A DNA stretch of 64,000 nt. Origin: Candidatus Electrothrix scaldis (GTDB lineage Bacteria > Desulfobacterota > Desulfobulbia > Desulfobulbales > Desulfobulbaceae). The DNA lies in assembly GCA_033584155.1 (NCBI GenBank), contig CP138355.1, forward strand, positions 310,001 to 374,000, read 5' to 3'. Positions 16,115 through 36,382 of this stretch are shown piece by piece; the first letter of the stretch is position 1, and every line of letters starts with the position of its first letter. A program made the position numbers and the translations under genes. A model generated the notes under the pieces. It saw nothing but the letters and a program-made list of their open reading frames with translations, made no database searches and was not told the DNA's origin.

Positions 16115-16423
16115 CACACCACTCCTTTATTAAAAAAGACCAAGTATTGGCCGAAAATATAAAAGTGCTGTGTTATGGTCATATTCAAAAAAGATTAGTT
16201 TTCGATCTCCCTTCTCAATTGAGCGTATTTCCTATAGCCCGTGGCAAACTTTTACTCCTCCAGATCAATCAGCAGTACCCATTGGATTTGGCGAGGAGCC
16301 AAAGAATCAATCTCCCTAAAACGCTCAGCCGAAATAGTTTGATCCCTGCTCTCTTGGTCCTTCATCAGTCTACAACTGTACCGCTCCCATCGCCCTCCCC
16401 TCTTTTACAACTCCATCACATTC

Positions 16424-16452
16424 CTGTTAGGATCGTGTTAGCCTCCTGTTTT
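16424..16452 (+). promoter_or_regulatory. Pho-box-like site: three direct repeats at 11-bp spacing
   Basis: CTGTTAG (16424-16430), GTGTTAG (16435-16441) and CTGTTTT (16446-16452) are 7-mers separated by four bases, the geometry bound by PhoB dimers (consensus CTGTCAT repeats). It lies 68 bases upstream of phoB, consistent with autoregulation. The rest of the 400-base interval before phoB holds no gene I can support. Confidence 0.6.
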
Positions 16453-16519
16453 TGTTTGCAAGGATTGCAGGAACTGCGTACTAATATTTCCATGAACCGA
16501 CAAACAAGAGAGGGTATCT

Positions 16520-17215: not shown

Positions 17216-17216
17216 C

Positions 17217-19022
17217 ATGACACGGCGACGCCCCCTTTTTTGGCAGATATTTCCAGTCAGCCTTCTGATCATTCTCAGTACCGTCCTGGCGGTCAGCTGG
17301 TTTGCAACCACGACCTTTAAGCAATTCTATTATGACCAGATGGCCGAGGACATTGAAGCCCGGGCCTTATTGCTGGAGCAAAAAGTCCTGGACCTGATCA
17401 TGGAGTCAACTGATGCGCTTCAGGATTTCTGTCGTCAAGCCGGACGACGGGCCCATACCCGCATCACCGTGGTTGCCCCGGACGGGGTGGTGCTGGCGGA
17501 TTCTAACGAAGATCCCCAGCGCATGGAAAAGCACGGAATGAGGCCTGAGATCACCTGGGCCTATAGCGGACGCACCGGTTCCTCTCTGCGCTTTTCCAAA
17601 ACTCTGCACCAGGACATGCTCTATGTAGCCATTCCTCTTCGGCTCAACCCAGCCAGTAAACCGGGTGCATTGCGGCTCTCTGTTCCGGCCACAGCCCTGA
17701 ATACGGTGCTGGCAACCATCCGCACCCGTATCATTCTCGCTTCCCTCCTGATTATCCTGCTGGCCACCATCTTTTCCCGCCAACTGGCCCTGCGTATCAG
17801 CCGTCCTCTGGAAGAAATAAAGCACGGAGCAGAACAGCTCTCTTCCGGTGCCAAGACCCGGCTCGTCAATATTCATGAACATGGCCTCTCGCTGGAAATG
17901 AGCGGCCTTATAACCTCTCTGAACAGAATGGCGGAGCAGCTTATGGAAAGGATTCTCCTGACCCGTCGCCAGCATAACGAGCTGGAGGCTGTGTTTTCCT
18001 CCATGACCGAGGCCGTGCTTGCGGTGGATGCTGAAGAGTGCGTGATTCGAATGAACCGTGCTGCCGGCAGTCTCTTTCGCATTGATCCCCAAATCAGCAA
18101 AGACAAATCTGTGCAGGGCGTAATTCGCAACCCGCAACTGATGGAGATGGTCCGGGGAACCCTGAGCAGTAATTACTCCACAGACGCTGAGATAGAACTC
18201 TTTGACGGCCAAAAGCGAACAATTCTCGAAGTTCGGGTCGTGCCACTACAGGATAGTGCCCAGCAACCCATCGGTGCCCTGCTGGTGATAAATGATGTCA
18301 CCCGCATCAATCGCCTGGAAAATGTCCGCCGGGATTTTGTCGCCAATGTCTCCCATGAGCTCAAAACTCCGATAACCGTGATCAAGGGATATGTGGAAAC
18401 CCTGCTGGATGGCGGGCTGGATGCCCATGCAGACGGCAATAAATTTCTTCAGATCGTCCTGCGTCAGGCCGGGCGTCTGGATGCCATTATTGATGATCTG
18501 CTCAGTCTGTCCCGCATTGAGAATAAGACCAAGAACAAAGAGACTGCTCTGGATCTGACCCTGGATGCGCTGACTCCGACCCTGCAAGCGGCCTTACAGA
18601 CCTGCGAACTCAAGGCTGAGGAAAAACAGGTCGGCCTGGAGCTCCATTGCCCTGCGGACCTCAAGGCTATCCACAACCCGGCCCTGCTGGAGGAAGCGGT
18701 GATCAACCTCCTCAGCAATGCGATTACCTATAGCCCGGCAGGCTCATCAGTGGTTGTGCGGGCTACATCGTATCAGGAGAGCGCCAGGAAGAAATGGGTC
18801 AAGATCGCTGTTGAGGATAAAGGCTGCGGCATTCAGCGGGAGCATCTGGACCGAATCTTTGAGCGCTTTTATCGCTGTGATAAGGCGCGGAGCCGGGAAA
18901 ACGGCGGGACCGGTTTGGGGCTCTCCATCGTCAAGCATATCGCCCAAACCCACGGTGGGAGCGTTGAGGTGGAGAGTCAGTTCGGTAAAGGCTCAACCTT
19001 TACTCTGAAGCTGCCAGCGTGA
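17217..19022 (+). CDS. phoR: Phosphate regulon sensor histidine kinase PhoR
   Basis: A 601-residue membrane kinase. TM1 at about 10-32, an extracytoplasmic domain of about 130 residues, TM2 at about 165-187, HAMP (RISRPLEEIKHGAEQLSSG), PAS (VFSSMTEAVLAVDAEECVIRMN), HisKA with NVSHELKTPITVIKGYVETLL (His about 381) and HATPase with NAITYSP, VEDKGCGI and ENGGTGLGLSIVKHI. The order TM-sensor-TM-HAMP-PAS-kinase is the long PhoR form found in Gram-positive and many delta-type bacteria rather than the short E. coli type. Translationally coupled to phoB. The convergent NRPS gene ends 84 bases beyond it. Confidence 0.88.
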   Translation: MTRRRPLFWQIFPVSLLIILSTVLAVSWFATTTFKQFYYDQMAEDIEARALLLEQKVLDLIMESTDALQDFCRQAGRRAHTRITVVAPDGVVLADSNEDPQRMEKHGMRPEITWAYSGRTGSSLRFSKTLHQDMLYVAIPLRLNPASKPGALRLSVPATALNTVLATIRTRIILASLLIILLATIFSRQLALRISRPLEEIKHGAEQLSSGAKTRLVNIHEHGLSLEMSGLITSLNRMAEQLMERILLTRRQHNELEAVFSSMTEAVLAVDAEECVIRMNRAAGSLFRIDPQISKDKSVQGVIRNPQLMEMVRGTLSSNYSTDAEIELFDGQKRTILEVRVVPLQDSAQQPIGALLVINDVTRINRLENVRRDFVANVSHELKTPITVIKGYVETLLDGGLDAHADGNKFLQIVLRQAGRLDAIIDDLLSLSRIENKTKNKETALDLTLDALTPTLQAALQTCELKAEEKQVGLELHCPADLKAIHNPALLEEAVINLLSNAITYSPAGSSVVVRATSYQESARKKWVKIAVEDKGCGIQREHLDRIFERFYRCDKARSRENGGTGLGLSIVKHIAQTHGGSVEVESQFGKGSTFTLKLPA

Positions 19023-19106
19023 AGTTACCTCACGCAGTGCGAGCTGCACTCTTTATCCCATTATTTTCATAGCTTTTTACAAGAGGGGGATTCACGAAAT
19101 GTTCAG

Positions 19107-22100
19107 TTACGTTTTGTCCAAACAAGCCTGTAGTTGTTCCGCCGTTGTATGAACATGCTCTCTGAGATACGAAAGATGGTCTCCGGGAACAGTATAAATC
19201 TCCGCACCCTGTTCCGCCAGAGTTCCCCAGTCGGAGAAGGAATTCCGAGTATAATTTTCTTCACAGAGCAGCAGAACAAGACGCCCAGAATAGAACTTCT
19301 TACGATAGTTCTTCGTTACTTCTATATAATTTTTCTTAAACATCCTTTTACGATTCTTAAATTGCATCTCGGGAGATACTTCTTTAGGGGGAGTACCGGG
19401 CACTATTTTTCGTATGTTTTTTTTTGCGTTACCTACAAGATATTCCGTTGCCCGATGCTGCCTGACTCTGTTTATCCATGACCTGACCAAGTGGTGAAAA
19501 AATAATCTCCTGCCTGTTGGATACGCTGTATCCATCAGGACCAGCAAACCTACTTCCTCCCCCTTTGCTCTGAGCTGCCGCGCCATCTCAAAGGCCACTG
19601 TTCCTCCGATACATTCACCTCCGAGCAGATAGGGCCCTTCAGGTTGTATAAGACGTATCTCGTCAAGATAGTCAGAGGCCATTTCCTCAACCGTTGTATG
19701 CGGGTTCCGCCCATCGTCCAATCCTTGAGCCAGCAACATATATACAGGCTGCTCTGTATCCAACTGGCGTGCAAGCCCTTCATAAATGATGAATTCACTG
19801 TGACCGCCCCCTCCACCCGGTATGAGAAAAAAAGTTTTTTTTTCTCCGCTAGCCCGGATCGGAACTAATGAAGTCCATGCGCTGCCCTGTCTCTTCTGCT
19901 GAACGATCTTTGCCTGTTCAGCAACGGTCTGGGCCTGGAAAAGCATTGCCAAAGATAAATCTCTGCCGAAATACTGCTGAATCCTGTTCAACAGGGTCAA
20001 TACCGAGATGGACGTGCCGCCAAGGTCAAAAAAGTTATCGTGTATACCTACAGGAGCGGTTTGTAGCACAGCCTCCCATATCAGGGCAAGCTGCTGCTCC
20101 TGCGTGTTTCCGGGAGCGACATAGGCTCCCCGAGCATTTTCATTCAGTTTCGGATCGGGTAGAGCTTTTCTGTCTATCTTGCCGTTAGGTGTGAGCGGCA
20201 TTTTCTCCAACACGGTGAATGAAGACGGAACCATGTAATCGGGCAGGCTCTCCTTCAGGAAACCGTGCAGCTCCGTGCTCAACGCTGCGGCATCCCTGTC
20301 CAACCTCCCGGAGACAGTCACATAAGCGGCTAGTGATTTATTTCCTTCCCGTTCATGCAGCACGACTAGGGCTGATGAAACCGCTTCATGTCTCGTCAGT
20401 GCGGCCTCAATTTCGCCCAGTTCGATGCGGAAGCCCCGCAGCTTGACCTGGTGGTCCATCCGGCCCAGATATTCCAGATTGCCGTCCGGCAGCCACCGAG
20501 CCAGATCCCCGGTCCGGTAGATGCGCTCTGTCTTTCCGAAAATTTTAACCTCGACGAACTTCTCCGCCGTCAGATCGGGACGGTTCAGATAGCCCCGCGC
20601 CAGACCGTCCCCGGCTATGCACAGCTCACCCGGAATGCCAAGGGGAAGCGGACGGAGGGTCGCATCAAGGATGTAGATACGGGTGTTGGCGATGGGTTGG
20701 CCTATGGGAGTGTTTCCATCGCGTTCCGTCGCCTCCTGAAAAACATGAAATGATGAGCAGATTGCGGTTTCCGTCGGCCCGTAGCCGTTGATAATGTGAA
20801 AAGCACTGTCTCCGGCCAGATCACGGTAATCCTGAAGCAATCCCTGCCGGATGGACTCCACGCCGACCAGCAGGCGCTGAAGGCTCCATTCGCTGCGACG
20901 CAGATGCCTGCGAAGACCGGCCAGCAGCGCGGGAGGAATATATGCGCTGTGAATCTGCCGGGCGCGGATATATCCGGCCAGATTTTCAGGATCGACAAAC
21001 TGCTCGCGCTGAAGGATATGCAGTGCTCCGCCGAAACAGAGCACTGAAAAATATTCCCATACCGCGACATCGAAACTGAACGGGGAAACCGCCATGCCTT
21101 CGAACGGATCAGAATGCGATGTCGCTCCCTCATAGGAATACAAAATATTTATGACGTTGCCCTGCTCAACCATCACTCCCTTTGGCCTGCCCGTGGACCC
21201 CGAAGTATAGATGACATAGGCCAAATTCTCCGGCCCGCAGCATCTCTGCGGATTTTCCGTCGTCCAGCCCGCATAACGCTGCGGATCGTCCAGATCGATC
21301 ATTTTTCCCGTAAGACCGGGCAGTCTGTCATGCAGACGGGTTTGCGTCAGGAGAATCTGCGCGCCGCAGTCCTCAAGTATGAAGCGGAGCCGCTCCTCCG
21401 GGTAGTCCGGGTCCAGGGGCACGTAGGCCCCTCCGGCCTTGAGGATGCCGAGCAGGCCGGTGATCATCTCAAGCGAACGTTCGGCGCAGATACCGACAAG
21501 GGTGTCGGCCTGAACGCCCAGTTCAAGCAGGGCATGAGCGAGCTGATTCGCTTTCTCATTGAGTTCGCGGTAGGTGAGCTGCTGATCTTCAGCCCGCCCT
21601 GAGCCTGCCGAAGGGAAAACAACAGCAATATTTTCCGGGGTCTTCGCCGCCTGCTCCTCGAAAAGATCGGCCAGCGTCCTGTCCGCAGGATATTCTGTAG
21701 TTGTGTCATTCCAAGCTATGAGCTGCTCCGTCTCCGCCGCCGTGAGCAGGGGCAGGCTGCTGATGTCCACTTCAGGCTGTTCAACAATACCCTTCAGGAG
21801 CACGGCGAAATGTTCGCTCATGCGCCGAATCGTTGCTTCTTCAAAGAGATCAACTGCGTATTCCCAGTGCAGGATCAGTCCACCGTCCCGTTCCGCCGCG
21901 TTCAGGGTCAGATCGAACTTGGCTGTCGGAAAGTCCTGCTCAAGCAGCTCGGTCTCCAGTCCTGGCAGGACGAGTTCCCCTTCCTCGTTATTCTGGAGCG
22001 CGAACATGACCTGAAAGAGCGGACTGCAGCTGAGGCTGCGCTCCGGCGCGAGACGCTCGACCAGCCGCTCGAAGGGCAGGTCCTGATACGCGAAGGCCTC

Positions 22101-22850
22101 CAGAGCAGTGCGGCGCACTTGGGCGAGCAAAGCGGAAAAGGACATGCCCTTCTCAAAACGGGCGCGCAGCACCAATGTGTTGACAAAAAAGCCGATCAGG
22201 TCTTCGATCTGGCTCTGGGTGCGGTTGGCGGTCGGGCTGCCGATGAGGATGTCGTCCTGACCGCTGTATTTGTGCAGCAGAACGCCGAAGACGGCCAGCA
22301 GGGTCATGAACAGAGTGCTGTTTTTTTTCATTCCCAGTTCGTGCAGCCAGGCGGTCAGGTCTGCATCGATCCGGCTCTCCAGATGCGCGCCCCGATAGCT
22401 CTGCACAGGCGGGCGCGGATGATCGGTCGGCAGTTCAAGCAGCTGCGGCGCGCCGGTCAGCTCTTCCGTCCATCGGGCCAGCCGCCGCTCCACGACATCC
22501 TCGTTCAGCGACTGCCGCTGCCAGGCCACGTAATCGCTGTACTGAACCGGCAGGGGCCGGAGTTCCGGCTCCCGTTCCTCGGCAAGGGCCGTGTGGATTT
22601 CCGTCCACTCCCGCAGCAGAATGCCGATGGACCAGCCGTCCGAGATGATGTGGTGCATGTTGAACAGCAGGACATGCTCCTGTTCACCGAGGATCAGCAG
22701 TTCGAGGCGCAGCAGCGGGCCGGTTTCAAGGTCGAAAGGACGTACCGCGTGTTTCCTGATCCGCTCCCGCATGGCGGCGGACTTCTCATCTGCTGAAAGA
22801 TCAGCCATATCCGTCACGGACAGCGGGTCGTACGGCGGCAGAATCTCCAC
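19107..22850 (-). CDS. NRPS, C-terminal segment: (C)-A-T-TE, frame-separated from upstream segments
   Basis: A 1247-residue frame that opens inside a condensation domain: its first part (MEILPPYDPLSV, then MHHIISDGW near 22655) continues the C domain whose start lies in another frame past the indel at 22855-22860. Then come an adenylation domain (VIYTSGSTGRPKG near 21190, NGYGPTE, KIDRKALP), a carrier domain (FFDLGGTSIS, Ser near 20010) and a thioesterase (FFLIPGGGGGHSE, GGECIGG near 19605-19625, GDHLSYL). The TE nucleophile position is Cys, not Ser. Hand-read A code is D-V-W-Y-L-G-G-I-C, which I cannot assign. The GTG shown as start is not a credible start; this is the last module of one long NRPS. 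Confidence 0.85.
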   Translation of the reverse strand: MEILPPYDPLSVTDMADLSADEKSAAMRERIRKHAVRPFDLETGPLLRLELLILGEQEHVLLFNMHHIISDGWSIGILLREWTEIHTALAEEREPELRPLPVQYSDYVAWQRQSLNEDVVERRLARWTEELTGAPQLLELPTDHPRPPVQSYRGAHLESRIDADLTAWLHELGMKKNSTLFMTLLAVFGVLLHKYSGQDDILIGSPTANRTQSQIEDLIGFFVNTLVLRARFEKGMSFSALLAQVRRTALEAFAYQDLPFERLVERLAPERSLSCSPLFQVMFALQNNEEGELVLPGLETELLEQDFPTAKFDLTLNAAERDGGLILHWEYAVDLFEEATIRRMSEHFAVLLKGIVEQPEVDISSLPLLTAAETEQLIAWNDTTTEYPADRTLADLFEEQAAKTPENIAVVFPSAGSGRAEDQQLTYRELNEKANQLAHALLELGVQADTLVGICAERSLEMITGLLGILKAGGAYVPLDPDYPEERLRFILEDCGAQILLTQTRLHDRLPGLTGKMIDLDDPQRYAGWTTENPQRCCGPENLAYVIYTSGSTGRPKGVMVEQGNVINILYSYEGATSHSDPFEGMAVSPFSFDVAVWEYFSVLCFGGALHILQREQFVDPENLAGYIRARQIHSAYIPPALLAGLRRHLRRSEWSLQRLLVGVESIRQGLLQDYRDLAGDSAFHIINGYGPTETAICSSFHVFQEATERDGNTPIGQPIANTRIYILDATLRPLPLGIPGELCIAGDGLARGYLNRPDLTAEKFVEVKIFGKTERIYRTGDLARWLPDGNLEYLGRMDHQVKLRGFRIELGEIEAALTRHEAVSSALVVLHEREGNKSLAAYVTVSGRLDRDAAALSTELHGFLKESLPDYMVPSSFTVLEKMPLTPNGKIDRKALPDPKLNENARGAYVAPGNTQEQQLALIWEAVLQTAPVGIHDNFFDLGGTSISVLTLLNRIQQYFGRDLSLAMLFQAQTVAEQAKIVQQKRQGSAWTSLVPIRASGEKKTFFLIPGGGGGHSEFIIYEGLARQLDTEQPVYMLLAQGLDDGRNPHTTVEEMASDYLDEIRLIQPEGPYLLGGECIGGTVAFEMARQLRAKGEEVGLLVLMDTAYPTGRRLFFHHLVRSWINRVRQHRATEYLVGNAKKNIRKIVPGTPPKEVSPEMQFKNRKRMFKKNYIEVTKNYRKKFYSGRLVLLLCEENYTRNSFSDWGTLAEQGAEIYTVPGDHLSYLREHVHTTAEQLQACLDKT

Positions 22851-23807
22851 CGTGCCGGTACCGTGTCAGGGAAGCGCATCCGCAGGCTCTGATGCCGTTC
22901 CGTGAGCAGGATGAAGGTCTGGCGCAATGCCTCGATATGCAGCTTGCCGCGCAGGCGCAGGGCTGCGGGCATATTATAGGTCGCGGACTGACCCTCCAGC
23001 CGATCCAGGAAGCGCAGCCGCTCCTGGGCGAAAGACATGACCGGCGGCGCATTCTCGGGCTGCGGTTCAACCGGCGGCAGGACATCGCCGCGCCGCTGCC
23101 GGTCCAGCCAAGCGGCAAGTTCCGCAATCGCCGGATGTTCAAAGAGGATGCGCAGCGGCATCTCCACGCCGAAGCTGTCCCGGATGCGCGAGACCAGCCG
23201 GGCCGCGAGCAGGGAATGGCCGCCGAGTTCAAAAAAATGCGCCGAAGCACTGTGTACCTCGGTCCCCAGCAGGGCCGAATACAGCCCGGCCAGCAGTTTT
23301 TCGCTCTCCGTCCGCAGCGGCGCGCCTTCGGAAATCTCCGAAGCATCCGGCTCCGGCAGATTTTTCCGGTCGATCTTGCCGTTGGGCGTGAGCGGCAGTT
23401 TTTCCAGTACCGTGAAGCTAGCCGGAACCATGTACTCGGGCAGGCTTGCCTTGAGAAATGTGCGCAGTTCCGCATACAGCGCGCCGGCATCCGTCTCCGT
23501 CCCGCCGGACACGGTCAGATATGCCGCCAAAGATTTATTGCCCTCCCGTTCGCGCAGCACGACAACCGCTTCCGAGACCGATTCGTGTTTCGTCAGCGCG
23601 GCCTCAATTTCGCCGAGTTCGATGCGGAAGCCGCGCAATTTCACCTGATGATCTATGCGGCCCAAGTATTCCAGATTGCCGTCGGCCCGCCATCTCGCCA
23701 AGTCGCCGGTCCGGTAGATGCGCTCGGTTTTCCCGAACAGTTCGACCTCCACGAACTTCTCCGCCGTCAGATCGGGACGGTTCAGATAGCCCCGCGCAAG
23801 ACCCGCT
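21328..23807 (-). repeat. Intragenic NRPS repeat, copy 1 (A start, C, T, A end)
   Basis: About 2.48 kb that is almost identical to 24518-26997 (offset about 3190) and, over most of its length, to about 27830-29948. It runs from the A-domain region just after the variable core of one module, back through the C domain and the T domain, into the end of the previous A domain. The only length difference between copies that I can see is the indel at 22855-22860. Confidence 0.85.
21597..21615. repeat. REP-like palindrome inside NRPS coding sequence, copy 1
   Basis: CCCTGAGCCTGCCGAAGGG, an imperfect palindrome of the widespread CCCTGAGC..GAAGGG dispersed-repeat type. It encodes part of the insertion PSAGSGRAE near the start of the A domain (after NIAVVF). 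The corresponding place in module 2 (AVVFENQQLAY) lacks it, so it is an in-frame insertion of 24 bases. Confidence 0.75.
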
Positions 23808-26041
23808 CCCGCGATGCACAGCTCGCCGGGAATGCCGGGGGGAAGAGGATGGAGGCCCGCGTCCAGAATGTAGATCTGCGTGTTCGCGATGGGCCGACCG
23901 ATGGGGACCATAGTACAGGAACAGTCGTCCGTACACTCCCAGTACGTCACATCCACCGCCGCCTCCGTGGGACCGTACAGATTATGCAATGCTGTTCCCG
24001 GAAGCCGGTTGAAACATTTTTTCTGCAGATCGCTGGAAAGAGCCTCGCCGCTGCATATTATCCGTCTCAGTGAACCGTTTCCGGGCATGACTGAAGATTC
24101 TAGGAAAATATGCAGCATGGAGGGAACGAAATGCAATGTCGTGACAGAACAGTCATCAATGATTCTGACGAGATACTCTGGATCTTTCTGTCCGCCTGGT
24201 TTCGCCGTCACCAAACAGGCGCCTGTGAGCAGAGGACAGAAAAACTCCCAAACGGAGACATCGAAACTGAACGGTGTCTTCTGGAGAATTTTGTCTTCCG
24301 CAGTGAGCTGATACTGCGCCTGCATCCAAAGCAGACGGTTGACGATGCCGGAGTGCGTATTCATACACCCCTTTGGCCTGCCGGTTGAACCGGAAGTATA
24401 AATGACATAAGCCAGACGCTCCGGCCCGCAGCATCTTTCGGGATTGTCCGCCGGACGGCCCGCATAAAGCTGCGGGTCGTCCAAATCAATCATCTTCCCG
24501 TCGAATCCCGGCAGGCGGTCATGCAGACGGGTTTGCGTCAGGAGAATCTGCGCGCCGCAGTCCTCAAGTATGAAGCGGAGCCGCTCCTCCGGGTAGTCCG
24601 GGTCCAGGGGCACGTAGGCCCCTCCGGCCTTGAGGATGCCGAGCAGGCCGGTGATCATCTCAAGCGAACGTTCGGCGCAGATACCGACAAGGGTGTCGGC
24701 CTGAACGCCCAGTTCAAGCAGGGCATGAGCGAGCTGATTCGCTTTCTCATTGAGTTCGCGGTAGGTGAGCTGCTGATCTTCAGCCCGCCCTGAGCCTGCC
24801 GAAGGGAAAACAACAGCAATATTTTCCGGGGTCTTCGCCGCCTGCTCCTCGAAAAGATCGGCCAGCGTCCTGTCCGCAGGATATTCTGTAGTTGTGTCAT
24901 TCCAAGCTATGAGCTGCTCCGTCTCCGCCGCCGTGAGCAGGGGCAGGCTGCTGATGTCCACTTCAGGCTGTTCAACAATACCCTTCAGGAGCACGGCGAA
25001 ATGTTCGCTCATGCGCCGAATCGTTGCTTCTTCAAAGAGATCAACTGCGTATTCCCAGTGCAGGATCAGTCCACCGTCCCGTTCCGCCGCGTTCAGGGTC
25101 AGATCGAACTTGGCTGTCGGAAAGTCCTGCTCAAGCAGCTCGGTCTCCAGTCCTGGCAGGACGAGTTCCCCTTCCTCGTTATTCTGGAGCGCGAACATGA
25201 CCTGAAAGAGCGGACTGCAGCTGAGGCTGCGCTCCGGCGCGAGACGCTCGACCAGCCGCTCGAAGGGCAGGTCCTGATACGCGAAGGCCTCCAGAGCAGT
25301 GCGGCGCACTTGGGCGAGCAAAGCGGAAAAGGACATGCCCTTCTCAAAACGGGCGCGCAGCACCAATGTGTTGACAAAAAAGCCGATCAGGTCTTCGATC
25401 TGGCTCTGGGTGCGGTTGGCGGTCGGGCTGCCGATGAGGATGTCGTCCTGACCGCTGTATTTGTGCAGCAGAACGCCGAAGACGGCCAGCAGGGTCATGA
25501 ACAGAGTGCTGTTTTTTTTCATTCCCAGTTCGTGCAGCCAGGCGGTCAGGTCTGCATCGATCCGGCTCTCCAGATGCGCGCCCCGATAGCTCTGCACAGG
25601 CGGGCGCGGATGATCGGTCGGCAGTTCAAGCAGCTGCGGCGCGCCGGTCAGCTCTTCCGTCCATCGGGCCAGCCGCCGCTCCACGACATCCTCGTTCAGC
25701 GACTGCCGCTGCCAGGCCACGTAATCGCTGTACTGAACCGGCAGGGGCCGGAGTTCCGGCTCCCGTTCCTCGGCAAGGGCCGTGTGGATTTCCGTCCACT
25801 CCCGCAGCAGAATGCCGATGGACCAGCCGTCCGAGATGATGTGGTGCATGTTGAACAGCAGGACATGCTCCTGTTCACCGAGGATCAGCAGTTCGAGGCG
25901 CAGCAGCGGGCCGGTTTCAAGGTCGAAAGGACGTACCGCGTGTTTCCTGATCCGCTCCCGCATGGCGGCGGACTTCTCATCTGCTGAAAGATCAGCCATA
26001 TCCGTCACGGACAGCGGGTCGTACGGCGGCAGAATCTCCAC
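22814..26041 (-). CDS. NRPS, middle segment: (C)-A-T-(C start), frame-separated
   Basis: This frame carries most of a condensation domain (MHHIISDGW near 25845), an adenylation domain (SGSTGRPKGC near 24390), a carrier domain (FFELGGHSLL near 23225) and the first 90 or so residues of the next C domain, then shifts frame at 22855-22860 and stops at 22814. The frame is open back to 26680, but upstream of 26041 it is an out-of-frame reading of the preceding T and C region. Hand alignment of the A core (FDVSVWEFF, TTLHFVP, ICSGE, NLYGPTEAAVD) gives D-V-W-H-I-S-L-V-D, close to the known serine code, so Ser is predicted. Its flanks are almost identical to the neighbouring modules. Confidence 0.85.
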   Translation of the reverse strand: MEILPPYDPLSVTDMADLSADEKSAAMRERIRKHAVRPFDLETGPLLRLELLILGEQEHVLLFNMHHIISDGWSIGILLREWTEIHTALAEEREPELRPLPVQYSDYVAWQRQSLNEDVVERRLARWTEELTGAPQLLELPTDHPRPPVQSYRGAHLESRIDADLTAWLHELGMKKNSTLFMTLLAVFGVLLHKYSGQDDILIGSPTANRTQSQIEDLIGFFVNTLVLRARFEKGMSFSALLAQVRRTALEAFAYQDLPFERLVERLAPERSLSCSPLFQVMFALQNNEEGELVLPGLETELLEQDFPTAKFDLTLNAAERDGGLILHWEYAVDLFEEATIRRMSEHFAVLLKGIVEQPEVDISSLPLLTAAETEQLIAWNDTTTEYPADRTLADLFEEQAAKTPENIAVVFPSAGSGRAEDQQLTYRELNEKANQLAHALLELGVQADTLVGICAERSLEMITGLLGILKAGGAYVPLDPDYPEERLRFILEDCGAQILLTQTRLHDRLPGFDGKMIDLDDPQLYAGRPADNPERCCGPERLAYVIYTSGSTGRPKGCMNTHSGIVNRLLWMQAQYQLTAEDKILQKTPFSFDVSVWEFFCPLLTGACLVTAKPGGQKDPEYLVRIIDDCSVTTLHFVPSMLHIFLESSVMPGNGSLRRIICSGEALSSDLQKKCFNRLPGTALHNLYGPTEAAVDVTYWECTDDCSCTMVPIGRPIANTQIYILDAGLHPLPPGIPGELCIAGAGLARGYLNRPDLTAEKFVEVELFGKTERIYRTGDLARWRADGNLEYLGRIDHQVKLRGFRIELGEIEAALTKHESVSEAVVVLREREGNKSLAAYLTVSGGTETDAGALYAELRTFLKASLPEYMVPASFTVLEKLPLTPNGKIDRKNLPEPDASEISEGAPLRTESEKLLAGLYSALLGTEVHSASAHFFELGGHSLLAARLVSRIRDSFGVEMPLRILFEHPAIAELAAWLDRQRRGDVLPPVEPQPENAPPVMSFAQERLRFLDRLEGQSATYNMPAALRLRGKLHIEALRQTFILLTERHQSLRMRFPDTVPARWRFCRRTTRCP

Positions 26042-26997
26042 CGTGCCGTACCGTGTCAGGGAAGCGCATCCGCAGGCTCTGATGCCGTTCCGTGAGCAGG
26101 ATGAAGGTCTGGCGCAATGCCTCGATATGCAGCTTGCCGCGCAGGCGCAGGGCTGCGGGCATATTATAGGTCGCGGACTGACCCTCCAGCCGATCCAGGA
26201 AGCGCAGCCGCTCCTGGGCGAAAGACATGACCGGCGGCGCATTCTCGGGCTGCGGTTCAACCGGCGGCAGGACATCGCCGCGCCGCTGCCGGTCCAGCCA
26301 AGCGGCAAGTTCCGCAATCGCCGGATGTTCAAAGAGGATGCGCAGCGGCATCTCCACGCCGAAGCTGTCCCGGATGCGCGAGACCAGCCGGGCCGCGAGC
26401 AGGGAATGGCCGCCGAGTTCAAAAAAATGCGCCGAAGCACTGTGTACCTCGGTCCCCAGCAGGGCCGAATACAGCCCGGCCAGCAGTTTTTCGCTCTCCG
26501 TCCGCAGCGGCGCGCCTTCGGAAATCTCCGAAGCATCCGGCTCCGGCAGATTTTTCCGGTCGATCTTGCCGTTGGGCGTGAGCGGCAGTTTTTCCAGTAC
26601 CGTGAAGCTAGCCGGAACCATGTACTCGGGCAGGCTTGCCTTGAGAAATGTGCGCAGTTCCGCATACAGCGCGCCGGCATCCGTCTCCGTCCCGCCGGAC
26701 ACGGTCAGATATGCCGCCAAAGATTTATTGCCCTCCCGTTCGCGCAGCACGACAACCGCTTCCGAGACCGATTCGTGTTTCGTCAGCGCGGCCTCAATTT
26801 CGCCGAGTTCGATGCGGAAGCCGCGCAATTTCACCTGATGATCTATGCGGCCCAAGTATTCCAGATTGCCGTCGGCCCGCCATCTCGCCAAGTCGCCGGT
26901 CCGGTAGATGCGCTCGGTTTTCCCGAACAGTTCGACCTCCACGAACTTCTCCGCCGTCAGATCGGGACGGTTCAGATAGCCCCGCGCAAGACCCGCT
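24518..26997 (-). repeat. Intragenic NRPS repeat, copy 2
   Basis: Second copy of the repeat at 21328-23807. It begins where the module cores stop differing (GTCATGCAGACGGGTTTGCG in both) and ends at the CCCGCTCC[G/C]GCGATGCAC difference near 26997. The indel site is 26046-26050. Confidence 0.85.
24788..24806. repeat. REP-like palindrome inside NRPS coding sequence, copy 2
   Basis: Same 19-base palindrome, same position in the A domain of module 4, carried along with the module repeat. Confidence 0.75.
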
Positions 26998-29900
26998 CCG
27001 GCGATGCACAACTCGCCGGGAATTCCAGGGGGAAGGGGACGGAGATTCGCGTCCAGAATGTATATCCTTGTATTTGCTATCGGACGGCCGATGGGTATCG
27101 TGCTGTCTTCAGCGTCAGATCGGAGCACGTTGTGCCATGTCGAGTATGTGGTGCTCTCGGTCGGCCCATAAACGTGGAGCAGATTTTTCGGCCCGTCCGC
27201 ATTCACGATTCCCTCCACGCTCAAGGGATCAACCTGCTCGCCGCCGAAAAGCAGATAATCCAGTCCACTGAATGCATCGGACTGATGCCGTGCGATCTGA
27301 TTGAACAGGGCCGTAGTGACAAACATGCTGGAAACAGCCTGTTCCCTCAGGTAAGCACCAAGTTCTGACGGCCTGATCAGCACATCTTTGGGCACATGTA
27401 CCAAGGATGCTCCGTTCAGCAGAGCTCCCCATATTTCATAAGTGGCTGCGTCAAAGGAAGTATTGGAAGCCTGGCCCATCCGCATGTCAGAGTTGAATGA
27501 CTGATAGTCCGCTCCCCTGACCAGCCTCACTACGGCCCGCTGCGGCACGCATACCCCCTTCGGCCTTCCCGTGGACCCCGATGTATAAATGACATACGCG
27601 AGGTGCTCCGACCCGCAGCATCTCTGCGGATTTTCGGCAGAACGTCCCGCATAAAGCTGCGGATCGTCCAGATCAAGCAGGGTGCCGGCAAAACCCGGCA
27701 GGCGTTCATGGAGACGGGTCTGGGTCAGGAGTATCTCCGCTCCGCAGTCCTGAAGCATGAAACGGAGCCGTTCCTCCGGGTAGTCCGGGTCCAGGGGCAC
27801 GTAGGCGCCTCCGGCCTTGAGGATGCCGAGCAGGCCGATGATCATCTCAAGCGAACGTTCGGCGCAGATACCGACAAGGGTGTCGGCCTGAACGCCCAGT
27901 TCAAGCAGGGCATGAGCGAGCTGATTCGCTTTCTCATTGAGTTCGCGGTAGGTGAGCTGCTGATCTTCAGCCCGCCCTGAGCCTGCCGAAGGGAAAACAA
28001 CAGCAATATTTTCCGGGGTCTTCGCCGCCTGCTCCTCGAAAAGATCGGCCAGCGTCCTGTCCGCAGGATATTCTGTAGTTGTGTCATTCCAAGCTATGAG
28101 CTGCTCCGTCTCCGCCGCCGTGAGCAGGGGCAGGCTGCTGATGTCCACTTCAGGCTGTTCAACAATACCCTTCAGGAGCACGGCGAAATGTTCGCTCATG
28201 CGCCGAATCGTTGCTTCTTCAAAGAGATCAACTGCGTATTCCCAGTGCAGGATCAGTCCACCGTCCCGTTCCGCCGCGTTCAGGGTCAGATCGAACTTGG
28301 CTGTCGGAAAGTCCTGCTCAAGCAGCTCGGTCTCCAGTCCTGGCAGGACGAGTTCCCCTTCCTCGTTATTCTGGAGCGCGAACATGACCTGAAAGAGCGG
28401 ACTGCAGCTGAGGCTGCGCTCCGGCGCGAGACGCTCGACCAGCCGCTCGAAGGGCAGGTCCTGATACGCGAAGGCCTCCAGAGCAGTGCGGCGCACTTGG
28501 GCGAGCAAAGCGGAAAAGGACATGCCCTTCTCAAAACGGGCGCGCAGCACCAATGTGTTGACAAAAAAGCCGATCAGGTCTTCGATCTGGCTCTGGGTGC
28601 GGTTGGCGGTCGGGCTGCCGATGAGGATGTCGTCCTGACCGCTGTATTTGTGCAGCAGAACGCCGAAGACGGCCAGCAGGGTCATGAACAGAGTGCTGTT
28701 TTTTTTCATTCCCAGTTCGTGCAGCCAGGCGGTCAGGTCTGCATCGATCCGGCTCTCCAGATGCGCGCCCCGATAGCTCTGCACAGGCGGGCGCGGATGA
28801 TCGGTCGGCAGTTCAAGCAGCTGCGGCGCGCCGGTCAGCTCTTCCGTCCATCGGGCCAGCCGCCGCTCCACGACATCCTCGTTCAGCGACTGCCGCTGCC
28901 AGGCCACGTAATCGCTGTACTGAACCGGCAGGGGCCGGAGTTCCGGCTCCCGTTCCTCGGCAAGGGCCGTGTGGATTTCCGTCCACTCCCGCAGCAGAAT
29001 GCCGATGGACCAGCCGTCCGAGATGATGTGGTGCATGTTGAACAGCAGGACATGCTCCTGTTCACCGAGGATCAGCAGTTCGAGGCGCAGCAGCGGGCCG
29101 GTTTCAAGGTCGAAAGGACGTACCGCGTGTTTCCTGATCCGCTCCCGCATGGCGGCGGACTTCTCATCTGCTGAAAGATCAGCCATATCCGTCACGGACA
29201 GCGGGTCGTACGGCGGCAGAATCTCCACCGTGCCGGCCGTGTCAGGGAAGCGCATCCGCAGGCTCTGATGCCGTTCCGTGAGCAGGATGAAGGTCTGGCG
29301 CAATGCCTCGATATGCAGCTTGCCGCGCAGGCGCAGGGCTGCGGGCATATTATAGGTCGCGGACTGACCCTCCAGCCGATCCAGGAAGCGCAGCCGCTCC
29401 TGGGCGAAAGACATGACCGGCGGCGCATTCTCGGGCTGCGGTTCAACCGGCGGCAGGACATCGCCGCGCCGCTGCCGGTCCAGCCAAGCGGCAAGTTCCG
29501 CAATCGCCGGATGTTCAAAGAGGATGCGCAGCGGCATCTCCACGCCGAAGCTGTCCCGGATGCGCGAGACCAGCCGGGCCGCGAGCAGGGAATGGCCGCC
29601 GAGTTCAAAAAAATGCGCCGAAGCACTGTGTACCTCGGTCCCCAGCAGGGCCGAATACAGCCCGGCCAGCAGTTTTTCGCTCTCCGTCCGCAGCGGCGCG
29701 CCTTCGGAAATCTCCGAAGCATCCGGCTCCGGCAGATTTTTCCGGTCGATCTTGCCGTTGGGCGTGAGCGGCAGTTTTTCCAGTACCGTGAAGCTAGCCG
29801 GAACCATGTACTCGGGCAGGCTTGCCTTGAGAAATGTGCGCAGTTCCGCATACAGCGCGCCGGCATCCGTCTCCGTCCCGCCGGACACGGTCAGATATGC

Positions 29901-32900
29901 CGCCAAAGATTTATTGCCCTCCCGTTCGCGCAGCACGACAACCGCTTCGCCGACAGACTCATGTTTCGTCAGTGCGGCCTCAATCTCGCCCAGCTCAATG
30001 CGGAAGCCGCGCAGCTTGACCTGGTGGTCCATCCGGCCCAGATATTCCAGATTGCCGTCCGGCAGCCACCGAGCCAGATCCCCGGTCCGGTAGATGCGCT
30101 CCGTCTTCCCGAAAATCTCTGTCTCGACGAACTTCTCCGCCGTCAGCTCGGGACGGTTCAGATAGCCCCGCGCAAGACCGGCTCCGGCGATGCACAACTC
30201 GCCGGGAATTCCAGGGGGAAGGGGACGGAGATTCGCGTCCAGAATGTATATCCTTGTATTTGCTATCGGACGGCCGATGGGTATCGTGCTGTCTTCAGCG
30301 TCAGATCGGAGCACGTTGTGCCATGTCGAGTATGTGGTGCTCTCGGTCGGCCCATAAACGTGGAGCAGATTTTTCGGCCCGTCCGCATTCACGATTCCCT
30401 CCACGCTCAAGGGATCAACCTGCTCGCCGCCGAAAAGCAGATAATCCAGTCCACTGAATGCATCGGACTGATGCCGTGCGATCTGATTGAACAGGGCCGT
30501 AGTGACAAACATGCTGGAAACAGCCTGTTCCCTCAGGTAAGCACCAAGTTCTGACGGCCTGATCAGCACATCTTTGGGCACATGTACCAAGGATGCTCCG
30601 TTCAGCAGAGCTCCCCATATTTCATAAGTGGCTGCGTCAAAGGAAGTATTGGAAGCCTGGCCCATCCGCATGTCAGAGTTGAATGACTGATAGTCCGCTC
30701 CCCTGACCAGCCTCACTACGGCCCGCTGCGGCACGCATACCCCCTTCGGCCTTCCCGTGGACCCCGATGTATAAATGACATACGCGAGGTGCTCCGACCC
30801 GCAGCATCTCTGCGGATTTTCGGCAGAACGTCCCGCATAAAGCTGCGGATCGTCCAGATCAAGCAGGGTGCCGGCAAAACCCGGCAGGCGTTCATGGAGA
30901 CGGGTCTGGGTCAGGAGTATCTCCGCTCCGCAGTCCTGAAGCATGAAACGGAGCCGTTCCTCCGGGTAGTCCGGGTCCAGGGGCACGTAGGCGCCTCCGG
31001 CCTTGAGGATGCCGAGCAGGCCGATGATCATCTCCGGCGAGCGTTCGGCGCAGATGCCGACCAAGGTGTCCGGCTGCACACCCTGTTCGATCAAAGCGGA
31101 TGCGAGCTGATTAGCCTTATCGTTGAGCTGCAGGTACGCAAGTTGCTGATTTTCAAAAACAACAGCAATATTTTCCGGAGTTTTTTCAGCCTGCTCCTCA
31201 AAAAGATCGGCGAGCATTTTATCCACCGGATATTCGGCTGCCGTGTCGTTCCAGGCGATGAGCTGCTCCGTCTCCGTTGCCGTAAGCAGCGGCAGCTTGC
31301 GGATATCTGTTTCAGGATTTTCAACGATGCCCTTCAGGAGTACGGCGAAGTGTTCGGCCATGCGCCGGATCGTCGCTTCTTCGAAGAGATCACGATTATA
31401 CATAAACACACAGGAGATCCCTTCTTTTTTTTCAACCAGATCTAACGTTAAATCAAAGGGTACTATTCCGGTATCAAATTCGAACTCATCCATCCTGAGT
31501 CCCTGTGATTCCATAGCGTTGTTTGGAAGATTTCTCAACTGAAACAGTACTTGAAACAGCGGAGTACGACTCAGATCTCGCTCGGGCTGCAGTTCATCCA
31601 CCAATTTTTCAAACGGCAGCGTTTGGTGATTATATGCGCCAAGGGCTGTTTCACGCACACGAGCCAGCAGTGACAGGAAAGTATTACTGCCGGAAAAATC
31701 CGTCCTCAGAACCAGCGTATTTATAAAGACACCGATCAGCTCCTCTGTCTCGACCAGATGGCGGCCTGCGATTGGAGCACCGACAGTAATATCATCCTGA
31801 CCGGTGTAACGATAGAGTAATGTTTGAAAGGCCGCCAGCAGTGTCATAAATAAAGTAACATTTTCTTGCCGGCTCAAAGTCCTGAGCGAGTCACTCAGGA
31901 CTTTGGATAGGACTAAAGAGTGTTTACCGCCACTGAAAGTCTGAACGGTTGCTCGCGGGTGATCAACAGGCAGATTAAGGATGCTCAGGCCATGAAGCTT
32001 CTGTTTCCAGTAGGAAAGATCTGTACTCAGCGTATCCCCCTGCTGCCACTGCCGTTGCCAGCTGGCGAAATCCACGTACTGAACCGGTAATTTTGCAAGC
32101 GGCGAAGGCTTGTCACGGCAGAAGGCGTCATAAAGTGTCGCGAGTTCCCGCAGGAGTACCCCCTGTGACCAGCCATCAAAAACGATATGATGCATGGTTA
32201 ACAAAAGTATGTGCATCTCATCGGTTATTCGCAATAACCTGCCCCTGACCAAGGGACCTAGCGTCAAATCGAAAGATTGTCGTACCTCAGAAGCAGCTAG
32301 GTGCCGGGCCTCAGTTTCAGGATCAGGACAATCTCCCAGATCTGTCACTGACAACGTCAAATTCAGGTTTGATGTTATGATTTGTACAGGAGTTCCATTG
32401 TTAACGGAGAAATGGGTTCGCAGGATTTCATGACGGCGTATGATCCCATTAAGGCTGTCTTCCAGTGCATCTACGTTAAGGGGCCCTGTGAGACGAAGGC
32501 TTGACGAACAATTATAAGCCGGATTCCCTGGTTCCAGCTGGTATAAGAACCACATCCTCTGCTGAGCAAAGGACAGAGGCAGCTCGCGGTTTCTCGGAAC
32601 AGGCTGGACAGATGATTGTTCCACTGCCGCTCTCTCCGCAGTTTCAAGGTGTTTGGCAATGGCAGCAACAGTCGGTGTTTCGAAAAAAACGAGAAAAGAC
32701 AATTCGATGTGTAAAACTTCACGGAGGCGGGCAATGACTTGAACCACAAGTATCGAATCACCGCCCAATTGAAAAAAGTTATCATGTACTCCCAGCCTGT
32801 TGACATTCAGCACCTCAGACCAGACAGCAGCAAGCTTCTTTTCCATCGGCGTAGTCGGCTCAATAAATTCAGCAACTAGGTCAAATTCAACGCCTGTCAG

Positions 32901-34412
32901 ACCAAGTTTTTCAGCAAGGCCTATACGCTGCAGCTTTCCGGTAGGGCCTTTAGGGATTTTATCCAGGATAATGATCTTGCGGGGTACCTTAAAATAAACC
33001 AGCCGTGTTGCTGCAAATGTCCGGAGATCTTTTTCAGCAACAGAGGCATGTTCGCGCAGCACGACGGCAGCGGCGATTTCTTCCCCCAGCTGAGGATGGG
33101 GCATCGCAAACGTGACCACCTGTGCGACTGCCGGATGATCCATAAGTATTTCATCAACTTCACGAGGAGAAATCTTTTCCCCACCGCGATTGATGATTTC
33201 CTTGAGGCGGCCGGTGATAAAGAGGTAGCCTTCACTGTCCAGATAGCCCTGATCGCCGGTACGAAACCATCCGTAGGTAAAGGCGGTCCGGTTCGCTTCA
33301 GGATTATTTTCGTAGCCGTGGGTAATATTGGCTCCGCGAATCACGATTTCTCCGAGTGTTCCCGATGGAAGCAGATGCCCGGCTTCATCCATGACGGCAA
33401 CCTCCGGTCCTGCTGCCATGCCTACGGAACCCGGTTTCCGGAGAAACGGCGGCAGGGGATTGCTTGCCATCTGATGTGTGGCCTCTGTCATACCGTAGGC
33501 TTCAATGACAGGTGCGTCGAAAACATTTTCCAGGTCGGCCAGTACCTGAGGCGGCAGAGCAGCTGAGGAGGAACGGATAAACCGCAGTCGTGTGCCAGCA
33601 ATAACTTCACCATGTTTTGAGGCACGGGCTAGTATTGCCTGATGCATGGTGGGGACGGCACTGTACCAGGTCGGACAGAACGCCTTGACCCACTCAAAAA
33701 ATTTGGGCGCATAAAAACCGGGCGTACAGATTACAGCTGCACCGACAGTCATGGAAGAAAGAAGCACTCCGATGAGGCCGTGGATATGGAACAGCGGCAT
33801 CACATTCAGGCAGCGGTCATTTTCAGTCAGCCTAAGCGTCGTACTGACATTACGGGCGGAACTGATCAGATTGCTCTGCGTCAGCGGTACAATCTTCGGA
33901 CGGGATGTCGTGCCTGAAGTATGCAGCACCAAGGCGATATCATCTGCCTGCTGAGGACTACTGCACCCTCCGGGTTTCTCCCGGGCCGGTGGCAGTGTGA
34001 GGGTAAAAAGTCCTGCCTCGCCATCCGACATAGGCTGCAGTTCAATAATCGGGATGCGACGTGCCCTGGCGGCTTCTCGTGCCGGTTCACCAATGCCGGG
34101 CTGAATAATCAATGCCCTGGCATTAAGGTCGGAAAGATAGAAGTCATATTCCTCGGCGCGATAGGAGGGGTTGAGCGGTGCTGCGGCAGTGCAAGCCGCA
34201 ACAGCTAAAAAGGCGACAGCCATTTCCGGTCCGTTGGGTAGGACAATGGCCACACGATCATTTCTGCCCACACCAAAGGCCGTTAATGTCTCAACCACCT
34301 GACTGATATGTCGGGTCAGCTGATGATACTTAAGAGGTGTACGTTCGGGTGCCATGATGGCAATGGCATCAGGTGCCGGAGCTGTTTGAACTCCTGATAG
34401 AAAACTAGACAT
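25992..34412 (-). CDS. NRPS, N-terminal segment: CAL-T-C-A-T-C-A-T-(C start)
   Basis: About 2800 residues. Order: acyl-CoA-ligase-like loading domain (about 1-520, VLHTSGTTSRPK, FIRSSSAALPP, AYGMTEATHQ, GWFRTGDQGY), carrier (LGGDSILV, about 550), C (HHIVFDG, about 740), A (SGSTGRPKG near 30765), T (LGGHSLL near 29600), C (HHIISDG near 29030), A (near 27570), T (near 26415) and the beginning of a C domain that loses frame at 26046-26050. The two A cores are near-identical; hand-read code D-A-Y-F-L-G-V-T-Y resembles branched hydrophobic (Ile/Val-type) codes. ATG 34412 is preferred to GTG 34430; neither has a strong ribosome-binding site. No epimerisation domain is seen. Confidence 0.88.
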   Translation of the reverse strand: MSSFLSGVQTAPAPDAIAIMAPERTPLKYHQLTRHISQVVETLTAFGVGRNDRVAIVLPNGPEMAVAFLAVAACTAAAPLNPSYRAEEYDFYLSDLNARALIIQPGIGEPAREAARARRIPIIELQPMSDGEAGLFTLTLPPAREKPGGCSSPQQADDIALVLHTSGTTSRPKIVPLTQSNLISSARNVSTTLRLTENDRCLNVMPLFHIHGLIGVLLSSMTVGAAVICTPGFYAPKFFEWVKAFCPTWYSAVPTMHQAILARASKHGEVIAGTRLRFIRSSSAALPPQVLADLENVFDAPVIEAYGMTEATHQMASNPLPPFLRKPGSVGMAAGPEVAVMDEAGHLLPSGTLGEIVIRGANITHGYENNPEANRTAFTYGWFRTGDQGYLDSEGYLFITGRLKEIINRGGEKISPREVDEILMDHPAVAQVVTFAMPHPQLGEEIAAAVVLREHASVAEKDLRTFAATRLVYFKVPRKIIILDKIPKGPTGKLQRIGLAEKLGLTGVEFDLVAEFIEPTTPMEKKLAAVWSEVLNVNRLGVHDNFFQLGGDSILVVQVIARLREVLHIELSFLVFFETPTVAAIAKHLETAERAAVEQSSVQPVPRNRELPLSFAQQRMWFLYQLEPGNPAYNCSSSLRLTGPLNVDALEDSLNGIIRRHEILRTHFSVNNGTPVQIITSNLNLTLSVTDLGDCPDPETEARHLAASEVRQSFDLTLGPLVRGRLLRITDEMHILLLTMHHIVFDGWSQGVLLRELATLYDAFCRDKPSPLAKLPVQYVDFASWQRQWQQGDTLSTDLSYWKQKLHGLSILNLPVDHPRATVQTFSGGKHSLVLSKVLSDSLRTLSRQENVTLFMTLLAAFQTLLYRYTGQDDITVGAPIAGRHLVETEELIGVFINTLVLRTDFSGSNTFLSLLARVRETALGAYNHQTLPFEKLVDELQPERDLSRTPLFQVLFQLRNLPNNAMESQGLRMDEFEFDTGIVPFDLTLDLVEKKEGISCVFMYNRDLFEEATIRRMAEHFAVLLKGIVENPETDIRKLPLLTATETEQLIAWNDTAAEYPVDKMLADLFEEQAEKTPENIAVVFENQQLAYLQLNDKANQLASALIEQGVQPDTLVGICAERSPEMIIGLLGILKAGGAYVPLDPDYPEERLRFMLQDCGAEILLTQTRLHERLPGFAGTLLDLDDPQLYAGRSAENPQRCCGSEHLAYVIYTSGSTGRPKGVCVPQRAVVRLVRGADYQSFNSDMRMGQASNTSFDAATYEIWGALLNGASLVHVPKDVLIRPSELGAYLREQAVSSMFVTTALFNQIARHQSDAFSGLDYLLFGGEQVDPLSVEGIVNADGPKNLLHVYGPTESTTYSTWHNVLRSDAEDSTIPIGRPIANTRIYILDANLRPLPPGIPGELCIAGAGLARGYLNRPELTAEKFVETEIFGKTERIYRTGDLARWLPDGNLEYLGRMDHQVKLRGFRIELGEIEAALTKHESVGEAVVVLREREGNKSLAAYLTVSGGTETDAGALYAELRTFLKASLPEYMVPASFTVLEKLPLTPNGKIDRKNLPEPDASEISEGAPLRTESEKLLAGLYSALLGTEVHSASAHFFELGGHSLLAARLVSRIRDSFGVEMPLRILFEHPAIAELAAWLDRQRRGDVLPPVEPQPENAPPVMSFAQERLRFLDRLEGQSATYNMPAALRLRGKLHIEALRQTFILLTERHQSLRMRFPDTAGTVEILPPYDPLSVTDMADLSADEKSAAMRERIRKHAVRPFDLETGPLLRLELLILGEQEHVLLFNMHHIISDGWSIGILLREWTEIHTALAEEREPELRPLPVQYSDYVAWQRQSLNEDVVERRLARWTEELTGAPQLLELPTDHPRPPVQSYRGAHLESRIDADLTAWLHELGMKKNSTLFMTLLAVFGVLLHKYSGQDDILIGSPTANRTQSQIEDLIGFFVNTLVLRARFEKGMSFSALLAQVRRTALEAFAYQDLPFERLVERLAPERSLSCSPLFQVMFALQNNEEGELVLPGLETELLEQDFPTAKFDLTLNAAERDGGLILHWEYAVDLFEEATIRRMSEHFAVLLKGIVEQPEVDISSLPLLTAAETEQLIAWNDTTTEYPADRTLADLFEEQAAKTPENIAVVFPSAGSGRAEDQQLTYRELNEKANQLAHALLELGVQADTLVGICAERSLEMIIGLLGILKAGGAYVPLDPDYPEERLRFMLQDCGAEILLTQTRLHERLPGFAGTLLDLDDPQLYAGRSAENPQRCCGSEHLAYVIYTSGSTGRPKGVCVPQRAVVRLVRGADYQSFNSDMRMGQASNTSFDAATYEIWGALLNGASLVHVPKDVLIRPSELGAYLREQAVSSMFVTTALFNQIARHQSDAFSGLDYLLFGGEQVDPLSVEGIVNADGPKNLLHVYGPTESTTYSTWHNVLRSDAEDSTIPIGRPIANTRIYILDANLRPLPPGIPGELCIAGAGLARGYLNRPDLTAEKFVEVELFGKTERIYRTGDLARWRADGNLEYLGRIDHQVKLRGFRIELGEIEAALTKHESVSEAVVVLREREGNKSLAAYLTVSGGTETDAGALYAELRTFLKASLPEYMVPASFTVLEKLPLTPNGKIDRKNLPEPDASEISEGAPLRTESEKLLAGLYSALLGTEVHSASAHFFELGGHSLLAARLVSRIRDSFGVEMPLRILFEHPAIAELAAWLDRQRRGDVLPPVEPQPENAPPVMSFAQERLRFLDRLEGQSATYNMPAALRLRGKLHIEALRQTFILLTERHQSLRMRFPDTVRHGGDSAAVRPAVRDGYG
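27830..29948 (-). repeat. Intragenic NRPS repeat, copy 3 (only in-frame copy)
   Basis: Third copy. At the homologous junction it reads GTGCCGGCCGTGTC (29231-29244) and keeps the frame, while copies 1 and 2 have two and one extra bases. In addition, the A core at about 26998-27850 is duplicated at about 30184-31036, so modules 2 and 3 also share their A domain. Confidence 0.8.
27975..27993. repeat. REP-like palindrome inside NRPS coding sequence, copy 3
   Basis: Same 19-base palindrome in the A domain of module 3. Its presence in three modules and absence from module 2 dates the insertion before the module duplications. Confidence 0.75.
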
Positions 34413-34532
34413 AATTACTGGAAAATGCACTGGTTGCAGCGAGGTTTCTGGTCTGCTCCTGCCCCTTGGTGACGGATTTAGGAATTTAACAGGAAATATC
34501 CTATCCGTTATGCAAGATGCCGCTGAGGGAGA

Positions 34533-34561
34533 ACCTTGTGTTCGCCTGTGTCTGCCCCTAC
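34533..34561. repeat. Partial copy of a dispersed TGTGTTCGCC/TCTGCCCCTAC repeat
   Basis: The interval between the NRPS and the upstream lyase-like gene holds TGTGTTCGCC (34537-34546) and TCTGCCCCTAC (34551-34561). The same blocks form the inner and outer arms of the 61-base palindrome at 38606-38666, so both belong to one dispersed repeat family. Confidence 0.6.
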
Positions 34562-34586
34562 TGAAAACGGGGAATTTATTTTGGGA

Positions 34587-35426: not shown

Positions 35427-35441
35427 AAAAGTCTCCTGACT

Positions 35442-36365: not shown

Positions 36366-36382
36366 GCGTTTCCTTTTGCGGT

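Follow-up and report, generated by a model that had tools for sequence, protein, structure and literature searches.

How do near-identical linkers come to alternate with unlike adenylation (A)-domain cores within a single nonribosomal peptide synthetase (NRPS) gene? This question was raised by a five-module NRPS encoded between 34430 and 19107 on the minus strand of a 64,000-nucleotide stretch of Candidatus Electrothrix scaldis (contig CP138355.1, positions 310,001 to 374,000; hereafter the window), for which a first-pass annotation had proposed recent tandem duplication plus exchange of the specificity-bearing subdomain. The analysis points to an NRPS whose modules probably undergo homology-based recombination among themselves; the recent events supported by sequence comparison are linker copying plus one core tract common to modules M2 and M3. 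The genome was a single contig of 5,089,909 bases, and the paper on strain GW3-3 has 5 089 909 bp in the text and 5 089 971 in a table (PMC10926707).

Modular organization of the NRPS

The gene had the modular NRPS composition of condensation (C), A, and thiolation (T) domains with catalytic motifs plus a terminal thioesterase (TE), arranged as an acyl-type loading module M1, three C-A-T modules (M2, M3, and M4), and M5 with C-A-T-TE. Motifs A2, A3, A6, A7, A8, and A10 were present in each of M2 to M5, the C-domain motif was HHIVFD in M2 and HHIISD in M3 to M5, and all five T domains carried the carrier motif LGG[DHT]S. The TE motif is usually GxSxG, with serine, while the M5 TE (~19515-19832) reads GGECIGG, with cysteine at the usual place of that serine.

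Linker repeats and the mosaic structure of M3

In gene direction, each linker began at the end of one A domain (A6/A8-A10), took in T and the next C domain, and reached A2 of the following A domain; the repeat units were spaced 3186-3191 bp apart. In self-alignment, the linkers L1, L2, and L3 were identical across their shared length save one site of up to 3 bp, at which the reading frame changes: (i) M5 equaled M4 over 21327-23361/24518-26551 except at 22858-22860; (ii) M4 equaled M3 over 23362-23809/26552-26999 and 24652-26551/27839-29737 except at the same frame-changing site; and (iii) M3 equaled M2 over 26552-26762/29738-29948 and 26995-27848/30181-31034, a 231-bp patch in M2 (29949-30180) breaking its likeness to M3 and M4. 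The three near-identical blocks named by the first-pass annotation had thus been bordered correctly to about 10 bases, and its statement that the A cores differ or are duplicated also held: the core pairs M5/M4, M5/M3, and M4/M3 displayed 20-72% identity (24 of 30 values below 50%, in ten 60-column blocks), while the M2 and M3 cores were identical. The sharp drop in identity expected at the A-core boundaries was seen between linkers and differing cores, i.e., identity changed abruptly within the A domain with the flanks kept; the breakpoints lay between A2 and A3 in M5 and M4, just before A2 in M3, and at A5-A6.

M3 was an exact two-parent mosaic of M2 and M4. Across 1037 sites informative between M2 and M4, M3 was M4-like at 40, then M2-like at 234, then M4-like at 763, and like neither at none; 0 of 20000 shuffles gave as few as these three runs (minimum 315). 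The breakpoints were resolved to 6 and 11 bp (26994-27000 and 27838-27849), and they enclosed an M2-like tract of 839-854 bp that spanned A2 to A6 by motif places. M2 and M3 were mutual partners for this tract, with transfer possible either way; candidate origins were copying from M2 to M3, copying from M3 to M2, and unequal crossing-over plus a separate patch event.

Separate histories of shells and cores in the genus

The A-domain shell (from the C-A linker to A2/A3, and from A5/A6 to A10) was followed with an N-terminal shell query run against eight genomes of the genus. Seven A-shell modules were found at 82-100% identity, the next best match having 58%: M2 to M5, a remnant at 2.35 Mb in the same genome, one module in the sister species (G005), and one in Ca. 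Electrothrix gigas AU1_5. Compared with M3 in 25-residue blocks, the remnant and the Ca. E. gigas module had amino acid identities of 52-100% for the shell, 12-68% for the core, and 12-64% for the C domain. The contrast extended to synonymous sites: synonymous divergence (dS) among all 21 pairs of shells was 0.11-1.02, while synonymous difference (pS) was 0.69-0.89 for the 19 unlike core pairs and 0.65-0.79 for the 18 unlike C pairs, at or near saturation.

Shell and core trees were built from 58 A domains (the seven of the family, 10 further ones from cable bacteria and their order, and 41 named loci). The seven shells formed one clade spanning three species (SH-aLRT 99), while the seven cores fell in five separate places, which took 5 label changes, each of them required by starred branches. 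In approximately unbiased (AU) tests, forcing the seven cores together gave -303 log units (p-AU ~1e-108), and forcing the M4 shell beside its core partners was 231 log units worse (p-AU ~7e-64). These sequence-based trees strongly support separate histories for the A core and its flanks; the comparison with related genomes, which the first-pass annotation had suggested, placed the shells in one genus clade and scattered the cores.

Mobile elements were observed beside two members of this family. The remnant at ~2.35 Mb (L014 4545-8315 on G000:C1, the contig of the window's own genome), which has the same A shell and ends within A8, adjoins an IS66-type transposase and a sulfotransferase gene; the transposase at 48352-49536 of the window has a copy of 100% amino acid identity near this remnant. 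The single close A-shell match of the sister species (L013 8956-9942, G005:C1 ~4.81 Mb) is interrupted by a Y2-type transposase lying within its A core, a DUF772 transposase being nearby.

Age of the linker copying

G005 was taken as the sister species, being the nearest of seven other genus genomes by two proteins (97 and 98%), and ten orthologous genes at the locus gave a pooled synonymous difference of 0.10 (dS 0.03-0.28). The M4 and M5 linkers differed at 0 nucleotides over 470 codons and 349 synonymous sites, where ~36 synonymous differences were expected at the sister-species rate; these paralogous segments were therefore more alike than the age of the species predicts. The M3 linker differed from those of M4 and M5 at one place, at the border of the M3 core tract. 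With zero against ~36 synonymous differences, the copying is recent, and it postdates the split from the sister species. Together with the M3 mosaic, this strongly supports the recent duplication or conversion among modules put forward in the first-pass annotation.

Origins of cores 4 and 5

The M5 sequence equaled that of M4 from the C domain to 21327, which was its sole recent border; from there to the TE, no part of M5 was a recent M4 copy. The broken NRPS module of the sister species had 96/76, 96/84, 82/76, and 93/76% nucleotide identity to M5/M4 in the first four blocks from 21347 and remained at 69-98% to M5 through the core, and its C and T-TE regions were unlike those of M5. M5 accordingly combines one recent border (21327) with an older exchange at A5-A6, and there is no need to invoke recent import of core 5 across two borders, since one crossover or linker spread suffices. 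Two simpler relationships were rejected: (i) M5 as a plain vertical ortholog of the sister's remnant, given the unlike C and T-TE and an A-domain dS of 0.30-0.65, above that of the ten ortholog pairs (pooled pS 0.10); and (ii) a whole A domain common to core 5 and the sister, the latter being nearer to M4 behind A6.

Core 4 (23810-24517) had recent linkers on both sides, and this arrangement favors the alternative in which the copies of one duplicated module kept their resident flanks and recently took in cores 4 and 5. The affinities of core 4 point the same way: its best matches lay outside the shell family (64% Nostoc and 64% Ca. E. gigas; 57% over 225 amino acids in the first relatives examined), as against 21-25% to the other cores of that family. 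However, no close donor of core 4 was found among 257 genomes of the class (best 64%), of which only eight besides its own matched at E 1e-25 or better. M5 had one recent border, and its A6-A10 and T-TE were not M4 copies; in addition, the sole near relative of core 5 in the 257 genomes was that of the sister, at 87%, older than the species split. Recent import of both cores is therefore doubtful, and for core 4 such import and linker copying around a resident core would give the same picture. The subdomain swap of the first-pass annotation stands for the two-sided M2/M3 core tract and for the separate histories of cores and flanks, but a recent swap of cores 4 and 5 is conjectural.

Proposed mechanism and further alternatives

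Recombination among the modules by homology would account for the mosaic, the sharp breakpoints, the differing shell and core genealogies, and the recent copying that the comparisons display. The A-domain shell, much alike in all modules, would provide the arms for pairing. A crossover or conversion tract that ends within these arms would either move the specificity core alone, as in the 839-854-bp M2/M3 tract, or carry the linker A6-T-C-A2 from one module to another, as in L1, L2, and L3. Ordinary homologous recombination is the presumed agent; which way each segment was copied, in what order the events took place, and that the product changed are likewise presumed.

Several points weigh against this account. 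Copy number and the frame-changing site are provisional, being read from the assembly. The 41 named loci of the trees were a selection from 79, made by rank and by full-length match. In the core tree, long branches come together, which makes single core placements soft, and 23 of 500 label shuffles got by with as few core changes, because near-copies make some clustering. The T domains of unlike pairs were less clear-cut (pS 0.53-0.88). Behind A6, the sister's module was overall nearer to M4 (dS 0.45) than to M5 (0.65), and core 5 with its C-terminal shell had no single shared history with the sister, which fits repeated exchange and blurs its direction. Core 4 was not found in another form of this shell, and its exchange is thus undatable.

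Plain tandem duplication by unequal crossing-over would instead make M3 the M2 core plus linker, joined at 27838/27849, with no core conversion. The regular spacing of the repeat units agrees with it, as does the identity of both core and linker between M2 and M3 save the 231-bp patch; still, it needs an extra event for that patch and cannot alone account for L2 equaling L3 beside three different cores, and it is judged unlikely.

It is improbable, given the sharp borders at A2-A3 and A5-A6 that polishing would not create, that the picture is partly an assembly artifact in which the 2.1-2.5-kb repeats were miscounted or polished to one consensus. The gene as assembled comprised three open reading frames (34430-25992, 26680-22814, and 22850-19107) rather than one intact frame, the frame changing at a single repeated C-domain site, where the net differences from M3 are +1 and +2. 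This site was the only difference among the linkers, and frame was lost there in two of three copies and kept in M3, which is odd for neutral change; by hand calculation, the chance that another, independent change in ~2.1 kb would fall within 3 bp of the first is on the order of 0.1-0.3%. According to the genome paper (PMC10926707), the average read length was 3779 bp, nanopore reads below 4000 bp were discarded, and Racon, medaka, and short-read polishing were applied. Residual error in the repeats is plausible given early nanopore basecalling plus short-read polishing in the pipeline, and it may extend to the frame-changing site. Against an artifact in the repeat structure itself, the linkers are flanked by differing sequence (M2 C domain, cores, and M5 T-TE), so that a read above 4 kb can span one, and the shell/core contrast recurs when the modules are compared with the remnant in this genome or with Ca. 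E. gigas. Searching plasmids with a portion of the C-domain repeat gave no match.

A reading without recombination, in which selection conserves the shells, where the catalytic motifs lie, and positive selection diverges the cores, can hardly be true: it is contradicted by the shell/core contrast at synonymous sites and by the trees and AU test, with cores grouping with other-phylum cores and shells within the genus.

Features of the locus

TABLE 1. Positions of NRPS parts and related segments in the window
Feature	Position	Strand	Basis or remark
M1: loading AMP-dependent ligase domain, acyl-CoA-ligase type	32841..34430	-	carrier protein next, LGGDS 32754-32768
M2 C-A; C domain differs from those of M3-M5	29949..32588	-	HHIVFD 32175-32192
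M2 core tract, equal to 26995-27848 of M3	30181..31034	-	site-by-site mosaic comparison
M2 231-bp patch (A6-A8 region), unlike M3/M4, partly nearer M5	29949..30180	-	self-alignment
Linker L1: A end and T of M2, C of M3, A1-A2 side of M3	27839..29948	-	self-alignment
M3 core tract A2 to A6, equal to M2; breakpoints 26994/27000 and 27838/27849	26995..27848	-	informative sites, motif places
Linker L2	24518..26999	-	self-alignment
M4 core, serine-type by similarity	23810..24517	-	similarity
Linker L3	21327..23809	-	self-alignment
M5 core, 86-88% amino acid identity to broken NRPS of sister species	20705..21326	-	sequence comparison
M5 A-domain end, T domain (own type), and thioesterase	19107..20704	-	motifs, translation
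Frame-changing site, M5 copy; M4 copy ~26049; M3 copy ~29236, in frame	22858..22860	-	self-alignment, open reading frames
NRPS plus PEP (phosphoenolpyruvate)-mutase-like gene segment, absent at syntenic place of sister	19016..35484		genome comparison

Substrate specificity

The cores contained the A4-A5 region. Among solved structures of the PDB set, Txo1 and Txo2 were nearest to the M4 core, and EntF ranked fifth; the pocket letters of M4, read by eye at the customary anchor positions, were serine-like. Both agree with the serine-type module 4 of the first-pass annotation, as a prediction. For M2/M3 and M5, the similarity comparison yielded no substrate assignment.

The locus in related genomes

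The locus comparison covered four of the seven other genus genomes. G005 matched the window at 97.98% nucleotide identity over 7001-16236 (query start 7001), 95.4% over 16383-19015, and 95.6% over 35485-38673; between its equivalents of 19015 and 35485 lay ~1.8 kb without a blastn match to the window stretch, and no NRPS was present at this syntenic site. In the three further genomes, relatives of 11028-12038 and 35442-36365 were only 1.4-4.6 kb apart, and the genes at 16520-19022 matched only below 38%. The difference in presence could be either gain or loss. Located on the strand of the NRPS and upstream of it, a PEP-mutase/methylisocitrate-lyase-like gene (34587-35426) is likewise absent from the sister locus. 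The host, Ca. Electrothrix, fits the possible Desulfobulbales origin that the first-pass annotation had suggested.

Two other genes were recorded. A 1682-amino-acid NRPS elsewhere in the genome (L018 2536-7584, G000:C1 ~1283.5-1288.6 kb) had its A domain split between A5 and A6 by an in-frame pyridoxal phosphate-dependent decarboxylase domain (Pyridoxal_deC 633-1008, E 4e-43; nearest NCBIfam PanP, below cut-off), whose downstream joint lies near the place of the core breakpoints of the window. A junction query of this interrupted domain against the 257 genomes matched three others, in the decarboxylase part only, and a literature search, judged from the openings of abstracts, found no A-domain/decarboxylase fusion. 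Within the window, 57388-61824 encodes a 1478-amino-acid protein with AAA helicase parts plus an MTES_1575-type nuclease domain, possibly a defense gene.

Comparison with known systems and significance

This kind of evolution is already known, and what is new here is a very fresh instance in a new group, the cable bacteria. Core exchange in NRPS genes has been described as the predominant mode (PMC8097286, Mol Biol Evol 2021). The present case resembles it in having breakpoints inside the A core, a conserved C-A linker and A-sub/T interface, and core origins that differ in related modules, but the modules concerned are paralogs inside a single gene of one closed genome, the M4/M5 linkers are free of synonymous differences, and the source is a cable bacterium, the string "desulfo" being absent from that text. 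Breakpoint hotspots have been placed in the A2-A4 interval, from about A5, and between the C and A domains (PMC7486941, Nat Commun 2020); the borders found here fall at the first two and the N-terminal border of the shell family at the third. Those hotspots cover Pseudomonas, Bacillus, and Streptomyces, while here single borders were resolved to 6-11 bp.

In wollamide/desotamide biosynthesis, intragenomic recombination after duplication exchanged A2 to A5/A6 (PMC9205934, Nat Commun 2022). Both cases share a duplicated NRPS sequence in which A2 to A5/A6 was replaced from elsewhere in the genome; substrate choice was tested there, whereas here it is predicted, for M4, from sequence. Gene conversion in the microcystin synthetase gene mcyA2 replaced stretches of 707 and 1029 bp (PMC3640908, BMC Evol Biol 2013), which cover the pocket and resemble the 839-854-bp M2/M3 tract; the parents named there were other strains, while the partner here lies in the same gene. 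A search of one literature library found no account of NRPS turnover in cable bacteria or Electrothrix, its top gene-cluster hits being unspecific.

The locus displays NRPS turnover in cable bacteria as an unusually clean and recent snapshot, combining 6- and 11-bp breakpoints, a two-parent mosaic, and one genus shell family with five core lineages, and its natural joints (A2-A3 and A5-A6) are useful for peptide-synthetase engineering. As a speculative extension, regarded as rather unlikely, one shell lineage in Ca. Electrothrix might serve as a standing acceptor frame, in which conversion keeps the shells alike in the genus and this likeness supplies pairing arms for cores of at least five lineages; if so, the homogenized shell itself would speed core shuffling.

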